This document shows positions 30,716-62,778 of a DNA stretch of 64,000 bases, piece by piece. The first letter of the stretch is position 1. Every line of letters starts with the position of its first letter. Source of the DNA: Chitinophaga pinensis (GTDB lineage: Bacteria; Bacteroidota; Bacteroidia; UBA4408); assembly GCA_945861665.1 (NCBI GenBank), contig CAMAVS010000004.1, positions 186,001-250,000 of the forward strand, given 5' to 3'. The position numbers and the translations under genes were made by a program. The notes beneath the pieces are model-generated. The model did no database searches. It was not told the origin of the DNA and worked only from the letters and a program-made list of their open reading frames with translations.

Positions 30716-30736
30716 TAGTTGTTGGTTGTTGGGAAT
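30716..30736 (+). repeat. TNGTTGT heptamer array (about 3 units)
   Basis: Adjacent 7-nt units TAGTTGT and TGGTTGT, then a diverged third. It is the same unit family as the array at 51008-51042 and lies 17 bp from the array at 30754-30802. Confidence 0.5.
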
Positions 30737-30753
30737 CGATTTCATTAATCTTT

Positions 30754-30802
30754 ATTCTTGCATCTTAACTCTTGATTCTTACATCTTGGCTCTTGCGTCT
30801 TA
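30754..30802 (-). repeat. YAAGANN heptamer array downstream of cca (7 units)
   Basis: On the minus strand seven consecutive 7-nt units fit YAAGANN (for example TAAGACG, CAAGAGC), with strict 7-bp spacing. The array starts 3 bp after the cca stop codon. Confidence 0.85.
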
Positions 30803-30805
30803 ATT

Positions 30806-32224
30806 CTAACCCACATAGCGTAACCCCAATTCTTTCCCTTTTGTTATCATAAACTGCGTAGCCTCCTGAACATCATTTTTTATAATACCATCCAAAATAG
30901 CTTCACGTATGGCATTTTTAATCAGCCCTACTTCCTTTCCTGCAGGCACATTAAAAGCCTTCATAATGTCTTCACCACTAATGGGAGGTTGCCAATTGCG
31001 CATATTGTCTTTCTCTTCAATCTCTTTCAATTTATGCCTAACCAGTTCAAAATTTTTCAGATATTTCTGCACTTTATATTCGTTTTTCGAAGTAATATCG
31101 GCTTCACACAAACACATCAAATCGTCAATATCATCGCCAGCTTCAAACAACAATCTACGCACAGCACTGTCGGTAACTTCGCTTTTTGCCAAAACAATGG
31201 GACGTAAATGAAGTAAAACAAGCTTTTGAACGTACTTCATTTTTTCATTCAAAGGCAGTTTTAATTCGGCAAATATTTTTGGAACCATCCGTGAACCTTT
31301 GTCCTCGTGACCGTGAAAGGTCCAGCCGTGGGTAGGTTCGAAACGTTTGGTTTGTGGCTTGGCAATATCGTGTAATAAGGCAGCCCAGCGCAACCAAAGG
31401 TTCTCTGTGTTTTTGCAAATATTATCGAGTACTTGCAAAGTATGGTAAAAATTATCTTTGTGCGATTTCCCATCAATGGTTTCAACACCATATAGCAATA
31501 CCATTTGCGGAAAAATAAGATGAAGCAGGCCGGTATCGAAAAGCAATTTAAAGCCCACTGAAGGAACAGGTGCAAGCATTATTTTATTTAGTTCATCGCT
31601 GATACGTTCTTTTGATATAATACCTATTCTTTCTTTATTTGTTACAATTCCGGCTAAGGGTTCAGCTGCAATGGTATAATTTAACTGCGCTGCAAAACGT
31701 ATGGCACGCATCATTCGCAAGGGGTCGTCCGAAAAAGTAATATCAGGATTCAAAGGAGTACGTATAATTCCCAACTTCATATCATCAATGCCATTGAAAG
31801 GGTCGAGCAATGTTCCATAATCACCTTTACATAAGCTTATAGCCAAAGCATTAATGGTCAAGTCCCTCCTATTTTGATCGTCTTCCAAGGTACCGTTTTC
31901 AACGCTGGGTTTACGACTTTCAAATTGATATGATTCTTTTCTGCCACCTACAAACTCAATATCATAATCACCGTATACGATTTGAGCTGTACCAAAATTT
32001 TTATAGATATTAACCTTATGCCCTCCTCCCAATTTTTTTGAAACCAATTTTGCCAATTCAATTCCACTGCCTATCGCGACTATATCAATATCTTTAGAAG
32101 GTCGTCCCAATAACAAATCGCGCACCCAACCGCCAATTACATAAGCTGGCACATTTAGCTCGTCAGCACACTGTAATACAATGGCAAAAACAGGATGAGT
32201 TAGCTTGTCTTTTAAATTATTCAT
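30806..32224 (-). CDS. cca: CCA tRNA nucleotidyltransferase / poly(A) polymerase family with HD domain
   Basis: Class II nucleotidyltransferase fold: [19 protein letters not shown] with the metal-binding aspartates at 45 and 47. The RRDLTINAL motif follows, and the template-like region around EDDQNRRD. An HD phosphohydrolase domain (LLHDIAKP) occupies about 250-400. It has 472 residues, the usual size for the Bacteroidota enzyme. It most likely adds or repairs the CCA end of tRNAs, as fits the tRNA-Gln gene here that lacks an encoded CCA; a poly(A) polymerase is the alternative. The heptamer array begins right after the stop. Confidence 0.88.
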
Positions 32225-51007: not shown

Positions 51008-51042
51008 GAGACAAACAACGAACAACTAGCCACTAACAACCA
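51008..51042 (-). repeat. TNGTTGT heptamer array abutting the ubiD-like stop (5 units)
   Basis: On the minus strand five 7-nt units follow the stop codon without any gap: TGGTTGT, TAGTGGC, then three more of which two fit TNGTTGT exactly. Strict 7-bp spacing. Confidence 0.7.
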
Positions 51043-59492: not shown

Positions 59493-61760
59493 ATGGCTTT
59501 TGACATTGAGATGATTAAGGCGGTTTATGAAAGACTTCCTGCGAAAGTAGAGGCAGCCCGCAAATTGGTTGGCCGCCCGCTTACATTAACAGAAAAAATA
59601 TTGTATGCACATTTGCATACAAACCAAAAAGCAGAAAATTTTGGAAGAGGCCAATCTTACGTTGATTTTACTCCAGATAGAGTTGCTATGCAAGATGCAA
59701 CTGCACAAATGGCCTTGTTGCAATTTATGCAAGCAGGTCGCCCGAAGGTAGCAATACCCTCAACTGTTCATTGCGACCACTTAATTACAGCCAAAGAAGG
59801 AGCTGCAACCGATTTAGCTTTTGCAACAAAAGAAAGCAAAGAAGTGTTCGATTTCTTAGGTTCAGTTTCAAATAAATATGGTATTGGTTTTTGGAAACCG
59901 GGTGCAGGAATTATTCACCAAGTGGTGCTTGAAAACTATGCATTCCCCGGTGGAATGATGATTGGTACCGATTCGCACACAGTAAATGCTGGTGGATTAG
60001 GTATGATTGCCATAGGTGTTGGTGGTGCCGATGCTTGTGATGTAATGGCAGGATTGGCTTGGGAACTAAAAATGCCTAAATTAATTGGTGTAAAGTTGAC
60101 CGGAAAATTAAATGGTTGGACTGCCCCAAAAGATGTAATTTTAAAAGTGGCTGGTATCTTAACTGTTAAAGGCGGAACAGGTGCAGTAGTTGAATATTTT
60201 GGTGAGGGAGCAACTTCAATGAGTTGTACAGGTAAAGGAACCATTTGTAATATGGGTGCTGAAATTGGTGCAACCACTTCAACATTTGGTTACGATGCAT
60301 CGATGGAGCGTTATTTAAAAGCAACAGACAGAGCCGATGTAGCAGAATTGGCAAATAAAATAAAAGAACATTTAACAGCGGATGCAGATGTTTATGCAAA
60401 TCCAGCTACCTACTTTGACCAAGTTATTGAAATTGATTTGAATACCTTGGAGCCACACGTAAACGGTCCATTTACGCCCGATTTAGCAACCCCTATCTCA
60501 CAATTGAAAGAAGCTGCTATCAAAAATGGCTGGCCTACTAAAATATCCGTTGGTTTGTTAGGTTCTTGTACCAACTCATCTTACGAAGATATATCTCGTG
60601 CGGTAAGTTTGGCAAAACAAGTTTCATCCAAAAATTTAAAATGTAAATCAGAATATTTAATTAATCCGGGATCAGAGCAAATTCGCTACACCATTAAACG
60701 CGATGGTTTCCTAGATGTGTTTAACCAAATAGGAGCAAAAGTATTTACAAATGCTTGCGGACCATGTATTGGAATGTGGGACAGAATGGGTGCCGAAAAA
60801 CAAGAAAAAAACACCATTATCCACTCATTTAACAGAAACTTTGCGAAACGTGCCGATGGAAATCCAAATACCTATGCATTTGTTGCATCGCCAGAGATAG
60901 TTACAGCGATGGCAATTGCGGGCGACTTAACTTTTAACCCACTGACCGATTATTTAACAAACGAAAAAGGAGAACAAGTAAAATTAGATGCGCCAAGCGG
61001 TGATGAATTGCCAACTAAAGGTTTTGCTGTTGAAGATGCAGGTTACCAAGCTCCCGCTGAAGATGGAAGTAAAGTAAGTGTTGTAGTTTCACCGACATCC
61101 GACAGATTACAACTACTAGACCCTTTTGCGGCTTGGGAAGGTGTTGATTTAAAAGGATTAAAATTACTTATTAAAGCAAAAGGTAAATGCACCACTGATC
61201 ATATTTCTATGGCAGGACCTTGGTTAAAATACCGCGGACATTTAGATAATATCTCTAACAACATGTTGATTGGCGCTGTTAACTTCTTCAATGAAAAAAC
61301 AGACAATGTAAAAAACCAATTGACAGGTTCGTACGATGCTGTCCCTAAAGTACAACGTTCATACAAAGCACAAAACATAGGTTCAATTGTGGTGGGTGAT
61401 GAAAATTATGGCGAAGGCTCTTCTCGTGAACACGCAGCGATGGAGCCGCGTCACTTAGGTGTACGTGCCGTATTGGTAAAATCATTTGCACGTATTCACG
61501 AAACCAATTTGAAAAAGCAAGGAATGCTTGGTTTAACTTTTGCCGATAAAGCAGATTATGATAAAATTAAAGAGGATGATATCATTGATATCAACGGTTT
61601 AACATCATTTACAGCAAACGTTCCATTAACTTTAGTATTGAATCACGCTGACGGCAGTAAAGAAGAAATTAAAGTAAATCATACCTATAACGAGCAACAA
61701 ATTGAATGGTTTAAAGCGGGTGGTGCATTGAATATTATTAGGGCGAATGTGAAAGCGTAA
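59493..61760 (+). CDS. acn: Aconitate hydratase
   Basis: The citric acid cycle enzyme that converts citrate to isocitrate through cis-aconitate. The 4Fe-4S ligands are Cys359 (GSCTNSS), Cys422 and Cys425 (ACGPCIG). Other active-site parts are GTDSHT (158-163), HIxPGS-like [10 protein letters not shown] and the swivelling domain motif [12 protein letters not shown]. The 755 residues match the mitochondrial-type aconitase rather than the 890-residue AcnA or AcnB. The gene is followed immediately by a short heptamer array and then by the bestrophin gene. Confidence 0.95.
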
Positions 61761-61763
61761 AAT

Positions 61764-61791
61764 AAGACACAAGACATAAGATTCAAGATAA
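61764..61791 (+). repeat. YAAGANN heptamer array after the aconitase stop (4 units)
   Basis: Four contiguous units, TAAGACA, CAAGACA and two more, fit YAAGANN with exact 7-bp spacing, starting 3 bp after the stop codon and in the same sense as the gene. Confidence 0.75.
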
Positions 61792-61818: not shown

Positions 61819-62697
61819 ATGAAAGCATATAACCCAAAAGATTGGTCAAGTCTTATTTTTAATTTTCACAAAAGCGATACATTTCGGATGTTACTTCCGG
61901 CAATGTTAGGTTTAGCAATACTTTCAGGAGGACTGTGTTATTTACACATTGAATTGAAATGTGTAACATTCAGAAGCACCACGGTAATGCATTCATTGTT
62001 AGGGTTTGTTATTTCATTGTTGTTGGTTTTTAGAACCAATACGGCATATGACCGCTGGTGGGAAGGCCGAAAAATATGGGGAGATTTGGTGAACAACAGC
62101 CGAAATTTAATGTTAAAATACACCGCATTTTTACCAACTGAAAAACAAGAATTAAAAAATGAATTCAGAATTTTAATTACAAATTATTCCTTTGCGCTAA
62201 AAGAACATTTAAGAGGCGGATTCAAGGAAGAATTTCTAGAAGAACACCCTCGCCTACATATACAGGATTTAAAAAACATCAATCATATCCCCAATAGAAT
62301 TGCGCAACAACTATATACTGATTCGGATGCATTGGTTAAACAAAATTTAATTTCAGAAGAAAAACTCATTGTTTTAAACGAGGAACTACGTTCTTTTACA
62401 AATGCTACCGGGGCTTGTGAGCGAATTAAAAAAACACCGATTCCATACTCTTATAGTACGTTTATAAAACGAATCATTTTTTTATACATTGTAACCTTAC
62501 CTATTGGTTTGATTCCTGATTTGAAATGGGCCACAATCCCAATTGTACTATTTGTGTTTTATGCCTTTGCAGGATTGGAACTATTGGCTGAAGAAATTGA
62601 AGACCCCTTTGGCTTTGAACGAAACGATTTACCTACGGACGATTTGGCTAATACAATTAAGAAAAATTTGATTGAGATTATAAATGTTATACATTAG
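61819..62697 (+). CDS. Bestrophin-like ion channel protein
   Basis: A 292-residue protein of the bestrophin/UPF0187 family: helical with hydrophobic segments at about 25-45, 58-75, 215-232 and 240-258. Family motifs are the pore-lining LGFVISLLLVFRTNTAYDRWWEGRKIWG and, near the C-terminus, GLELLAEEIEDPFG. Bacterial bestrophins form pentameric channels, in studied cases cation-selective rather than chloride-selective. Selectivity here cannot be judged. It is separated from aconitase by 58 bp and may be co-transcribed with it. Confidence 0.9.
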   Translation: MKAYNPKDWSSLIFNFHKSDTFRMLLPAMLGLAILSGGLCYLHIELKCVTFRSTTVMHSLLGFVISLLLVFRTNTAYDRWWEGRKIWGDLVNNSRNLMLKYTAFLPTEKQELKNEFRILITNYSFALKEHLRGGFKEEFLEEHPRLHIQDLKNINHIPNRIAQQLYTDSDALVKQNLISEEKLIVLNEELRSFTNATGACERIKKTPIPYSYSTFIKRIIFLYIVTLPIGLIPDLKWATIPIVLFVFYAFAGLELLAEEIEDPFGFERNDLPTDDLANTIKKNLIEIINVIH

Positions 62698-62742
62698 ATT
62701 TTAGACTTGAGATTTAAGAATCAAGATTTTGGATTTTAGAAA
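62694..62742 (+). repeat. Degenerate heptamer array overlapping the bestrophin stop (7 units)
   Basis: Seven consecutive 7-nt units fit YNRGANN, two of them (TAAGAAT, CAAGATT) matching YAAGANN. The first unit contains the TAG stop codon. A terminator follows. Confidence 0.7.
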
Positions 62743-62778
62743 TAAAAAACTCCGGAAAATTCCGGAGTTTTTTATTTT
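62741..62778. terminator. Bidirectional terminator, bestrophin and lipoprotein genes
   Basis: A 14-bp perfect stem (62744-62757 with 62760-62773), A-rich before and T-rich after, between convergent genes. Confidence 0.9.

Follow-up and report, generated by a model that had tools for sequence, protein, structure and literature searches.

Degenerate heptanucleotide tandem repeats lie in sense orientation behind stop codons in a Bacteroidia genome

In Xanthomonas, heptamers of the form (GGGANTN)n, and in Nostoc GGGGA(C/T)T, lie on the coding strand within 50 bp past stop codons, overlapping the stop, and on the non-coding strand before starts; they are rare in divergent gaps and frequently form inverted pairs (Rehm et al. 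2015, PMC4692102). The STRR sequences of cyanobacteria are likewise degenerate heptads, with hairpins formed by opposed repeats (PMC2670836). In the P6b element of the Nostoc trnL intron, opposed repeats of the heptads TDNGATT or NNTGAGT form a hairpin, and whole classes of heptads have been replaced at this fixed site (PMC4476775). Intergenic arrays of the 7-nt direct repeat TAACTGA occur in five Bacteroidetes as well, and a post-transcriptional role has been proposed for them (MacGregor 2015, PMC4679880). Within coding sequence, the CTCTT repeats in the leader peptide of Neisseria opa genes are perfect 5-nt repeats that phase-vary (PMC3960869).

The window analyzed here is a stretch of 64,000 nucleotides from Chitinophaga pinensis, and positions refer to it unless otherwise stated. 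Its best array lies behind a cca-like gene of the tRNA nucleotidyltransferase / poly(A) polymerase family (30806..32224, minus strand; Pfam PolyA_pol, PolyA_pol_RNAbd and HD). Seven YAAGANN units had been noted 3 bp past the cca stop; we find eight NAAGANN units in phase starting at that distance (30747..30802, minus strand; G000:C4:216747-216802, where G000 is the window's genome), seven of them YAAGANN. Read on the minus strand from 30802 to 30747, the units are TAAGACG, CAAGAGC, CAAGATG, TAAGAAT, CAAGAGT, TAAGATG, CAAGAAT, and AAAGATT; the core AAGA is present in 8/8 units and all eight 3-nt spacers are distinct. On this strand the spacer AAT separates the stop codon TAG (30808-30806) from the first unit, and the stop codon is itself in phase with the array, lying inside a degenerate unit, TTAGAAT, that together with its preceding base spans 30803..30810 in register with the other units. 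TNGTTGT units had also been noted beside the array. There are two complete ones, TAGTTGT TGGTTGT (30716-30729, plus strand), and a partial third, TGG, so that this second array, antisense to cca, covers 30716..30732. The cca array is predicted to be unpaired and without RNA structure (fold z -0.37); an Rfam search of the window returned a tRNA as the sole match and no match to the array.

Comparable arrays were found at the other three stop codons named in the original prediction, all looser than the one behind cca. Four YAAGANN units on the plus strand (61763..61790) begin 2 bp past the TAA of the aconitase gene (61758-61760). Behind the bestrophin gene, looser units on the plus strand (TAGATTT, TAGACTT, GAGATTT, AAGAATC, AAGATTT, TGGATTT; 62695..62742) run in register from the stop codon TAG at 62695, which opens the first unit, up to an intrinsic terminator hairpin, AACTCCGGAAAATTCCGGAGTTTTTT (62748..62774, plus strand). 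About four degenerate TNGTTGT-like units (51010..51042, minus strand) begin 1 nt past the TAA (51045-51043) of the gene of the UbiD family.

Across the 2.49-Mb genome from which the window comes, three successive YAAGANN units match 17 times, compared to 0 for the reversed control, the surplus that had been expected of this unit. For TNGTTGT the expectation stood only in part: two exact units give a weaker excess (16 matches versus 4 in the control), and with one mismatch allowed there is no surplus (88 versus 100). A recurrent intergenic palindrome, cccgatagctatcggg, occurs near several TNGTTGT arrays in this genome (L291, L294, L295, L304) and looks like a separate dispersed repeat. We also scanned, without any motif, for column conservation at each of the periods 4 to 15 in 97 kb of intergenic DNA of the window's genome, which was sampled in part (~0.85 Mb). 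At a score of at least 12, there are 8 period-7 arrays compared to 0.7 in shuffles, and 0-3 arrays at the other periods; period 7 is the sole clearly over-represented period in the intergenic DNA of this genome. The excess is larger in the cca-locus set, 80 named loci of Bacteroidia that surround cca, with 44 period-7 arrays versus 1 at a score of at least 9, and a 400-kb sample of another genome, G293, exceeds this with 46 versus 0 at a score of at least 12. We rejected a background 7-nt periodicity outside the arrays; no signal is left after the arrays are masked.

Most heptad arrays are intergenic, and they are scattered throughout the genome, with a few inside genes. Four successive YAAGARN units are present in 43/295 Bacteroidia genomes, and the unit words of this class are numerous, including TGAGATN, YATGAAC, AAATNCG, GTAATGG, CTGATAT, and others. 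Each genome has a few favored core words, and these vary among neighboring genera.

The position of the arrays with respect to stop codons, and their strand, are non-random. Using gene calls made in this analysis, exact for stops and approximate for starts, we find array densities (score at least 12) of 0.40 per kb in codirectional, 0.37 in convergent, and 0.07 in divergent gaps; arrays are thus about six times rarer between divergent genes. Placed at random in the same gaps, 20 arrays would be expected within 12 nt of a stop, and 28 are observed (P=0.01). In gaps of 100-250 nt, array coverage is 3.3% at 0-40 nt past stops and zero beyond 80 nt. The polarity is equally real. Among intergenic YAAGANN arrays within 10 nt of a stop, collected regardless of context, 16 are sense and 0 antisense (P=3e-5); strictly behind the stop, at the same distance, the counts are 8 and 0. 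With all unit types pooled, a purine-rich sense strand prevails in arrays past stops (27 versus 8) and a pyrimidine-rich one in arrays before starts (22 versus 6). The original prediction, that the YAAGANN unit points the same way as its gene and that stop distance and strand depart from chance, is therefore confirmed by the sense excess, the coverage peak at 0-40 nt, and the depletion in divergent gaps.

Part of the stop abutment has a trivial, mechanical cause. Whatever the frame, runs of TAAGANN and TAGTTGT bring a stop codon, so a gene that enters such an array ends at its first unit, and the gene's stop can be a TAA or TAG of the array. The stop codon lies inside roughly half of the arrays that abut (negative distances). 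These observations would fit a reading in which abutment is nothing but a by-product, with arrays landing anywhere they are tolerated and a TAA, TAG, or TGA in the unit ending the frame. This reading, already weakened, is very improbable: enrichment and orientation persist strictly behind the stop (8:0), coverage declines over 80 nt, and stop-free CAAGANN arrays abut stop codons as well. A further candidate pattern, more stop codons in the sense than in the antisense direction of post-stop arrays, was weak (214 versus 169; 21 arrays versus 17), and we set it aside.

The exact phase and partial conservation of the units had been taken to mean that simple slippage of an identical unit is insufficient. 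This stood for the core of the cca array, whose column heterogeneity departs from a simulated model of duplication plus mutation (P=0.018), but not for most arrays: 12/86 have P<0.05 and most are compatible with the model. Strong within-unit selection as a general rule was rejected on these grounds, being mostly accounted for by duplication plus mutation. We also rejected copying of arrays among loci in the window's genome, where shared unit pairs are not above chance (P=0.38). Shared unit order in G293 traces to four loci with a second array in common ~3.7 kb off, probably a duplicated operon such as rRNA. At these loci (L202, L208, L212, L213) the region of the two shared arrays has no called genes; the arrays probably flank rRNA operons, and the YAAGANN run shifts stepwise into YAGATAT units with its phase unchanged. 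Elsewhere in G293 (L216:10026-11079), a stretch of ~333 bp is repeated four times in tandem, with a CAAAATC heptad array in every copy.

About nine independent loci in the window's genome share AAGA with nearly random spacers and no shared order, and a shared core with nearly free spacers at independent loci speaks against plain slippage from random seeds. It is what an array of binding sites would look like, in which a protein (e.g. of the cold-shock or RRM type) or an sRNA reads AAGA once per 7 nt in the 3′ UTR and controls decay or 3′ ends; the sense orientation of YAAGANN past stops and the heterogeneity of the cca core (P=0.018) point the same way. We nevertheless consider this explanation quite unlikely. 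The arrays are lineage-specific: 0/6 family-level orthologues with a readable cca stop carry an array behind cca, the nearest cca relatives compared being those that differ from the window's genome at family level. Many cores coexist within one genome, unit words are unlike at orthologous sites of neighboring genera, and Rfam holds no match. The same arrays also occur inside proteins. In the window's genome, heptad arrays lie in frame within linkers of MutS, alanyl-tRNA synthetase (AlaRS), and YggS, and ACAACYA units occupy a variable loop of RmlB. The 3′ UTR role that had been suggested, as a site for an RNA-binding protein or small RNA, is thus unsupported, and a dedicated or fixed regulatory site there appears unlikely, judging from its absence behind cca in six relatives, the different words between genera, and the arrays in protein linkers. 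The in-frame coding arrays themselves (L145:9370 in MutS, L144:6655 in AlaRS, L144:15849 in YggS, L133:2111 in RmlB) sit in variable linkers, in an orientation that is always coding-compatible.

Many arrays in relatives are paired. In the cca-locus set, a partner in reverse complement lies within 220 nt of 23/34 arrays, compared to 3/34 in a complement-only control. The paired arms are 81% complementary in register, and shifting one against the other by one or two units lowers this to 58%; since they match in one register and less when slid, the variable bases also match from arm to arm. Behind two genes of Mucilaginibacter-like species, the gap folds as a long hairpin that begins at the stop codon and ends near the start of the next gene, and the heptads vary by species with pairing kept; in Pedobacter relatives, short hairpins replace one of these long ones. 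In the gaps behind one and the same gene (L054, L058, L070, L084, L048), heptad arrays make up the hairpin arms, with the second arm extending to the start codon that follows. Pairing that is kept while heptads change could reflect selection for the stem or copying from arm to arm.

Single arrays such as those in the window might accordingly be read as half or decayed arms of inverted-pair elements, the complete element being a hairpin in intergenic RNA, its first arm rich in purines and its second in pyrimidines, that serves transcript 3′-end formation or translational coupling. The frequent partners in the cca-locus set, the in-register match of the arms, the strong folds that Mucilaginibacter-like relatives keep at the same place, the purine-first polarity, and the absence between divergent genes all favor such an element. 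In the window's genome, however, just 2/15 arrays have a candidate partner, the cca array is unpaired, and the bestrophin array already precedes a normal terminator; template-switch copying from arm to arm could, moreover, yield the same match. On this evidence we think that half-hairpins are unlikely to account for the arrays of the window.

Outside the window, heptads also write signal peptides. In the genome G010, its genus, and several other genera, arrays of the opposite sense, NNTCTTR, start 5-40 nt past the ATG and encode signal peptides such as MMNYFLPLASCLLLLASDLSAQ and MKTNYEFKILASCFLLLASCYSFAQ; repeats of the unit TCTTGCT, translated through the three frames in turn, spell SCFLLLA. 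As a TCTTG-type heptad, in whichever frame it is read, specifies a hydrophobic peptide free of stops, such arrays may, we suggest tentatively, provide a pool of ready-made signal peptides. In one orthologue, whose mature part is 99% identical between G010 and G183, the heptads are CTATTTT in two genomes, TTTCTTG in two, and CTACTGC in a fifth, and the swap begins at the start codon and stops near the point where the signal peptide ends. The loci concerned (L223:6361-6440 in G010, and L270-L274) were found via a search for the same words.

The arrays have a 7-nt step, a constant core of 4-5 nt, and variable remaining bases. They are degenerate heptanucleotide repeats in tandem, of the type of STRR or simple-sequence repeats, and we lean, by a narrow measure, toward the view that they arise by 7-nt tandem duplication, decay, and are kept where tolerated. 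Birth and turnover would proceed by 7-nt tandem duplication (slippage) followed by substitution, and arrays would persist only where a 7-nt change spares reading frame and promoter, chiefly in the interval from a stop codon to whatever signal follows. In that interval, the statistics above show, it is the purine-rich strand that is retained as message. We favor this view because period 7 alone is over-represented, with no signal after masking; most arrays fit the duplication-mutation null; loci in the window's genome show no copying; and the divergent depletion, the 0-40 nt peak, and the lack of an array behind cca in family relatives all agree with it. The polarity, the arrays in protein linkers, the unstructured cca array, the inverted partners, and the placement rules of Xanthomonas and Nostoc also entered into this choice. 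Strand polarity nonetheless counts against it, as neutrality gives no account of polarity. Being single and unpaired, the arrays in the window would be expected to appear in transcripts as short 3′ stretches, rich in A and G and without structure, each with a weak function or none; their function is probably weak. In relatives with an opposite array downstream, the two would pair in the RNA as a long stem-loop between genes, which may act on 3′-end formation, mRNA stability, or coupling.

The arrays are real, and repeats of their kind are known from other bacteria. They have a 7-nt unit in exact phase, at least three copies, and an occurrence above chance, as STRR/LSSR sequences do, and in unit, phase, and dispersal the likeness to degenerate heptanucleotide families that had been pointed out for them is correct. 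They share the degenerate 7-nt unit with the STRR and trnL heptads and differ from these in the units themselves, in phylum, and, in the window, in being unpaired. They are unlike the TAACTGA repeats, which are invariant and lie mostly upstream of start codons, whereas the window's unit is a different and degenerate one. The signal-peptide arrays of relatives, which are not in the window, resemble Neisseria opa in that non-triplet tandem repeats encode a leader. These relatives point to 7-nt-repeat signal peptides and to long intergenic hairpins that keep pairing as their sequence changes. A general rule spanning at least three phyla is a more speculative possibility, and one we hold only tentatively: that at either gene end the purine-rich strand runs outward, whatever the unit word, that opposed arrays co-evolve as hairpin arms, and that the same pool supplies signal peptides in Bacteroidia, exchangeable wholesale between near-identical orthologues.

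The closest match is to the heptamers of Xanthomonas and Nostoc. Like these, the Bacteroidia arrays have a degenerate 7-nt unit with a conserved core, lie on the coding strand within 50 bp past stops and on the opposite strand before starts, and are rare in divergent gaps; for inverted pairs, frequent in Xanthomonas and Nostoc, the counts are 2/15 arrays with a candidate partner in the window's genome and 23/34 in the cca-locus set. In contrast to those G-rich heptamers, YAAGANN has no runs of three or more G, and the Bacteroidia have many core words. Because YAAGANN lacks a G-tract, G-quadruplexes cannot be the common cause of the heptamer pattern, and with that cause removed the origin of the 7-nt step becomes testable across phyla. 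The stop-proximal, strand-biased pattern known from Xanthomonas and Nostoc now extends to Bacteroidota, with a unit incapable of forming G-quadruplexes.
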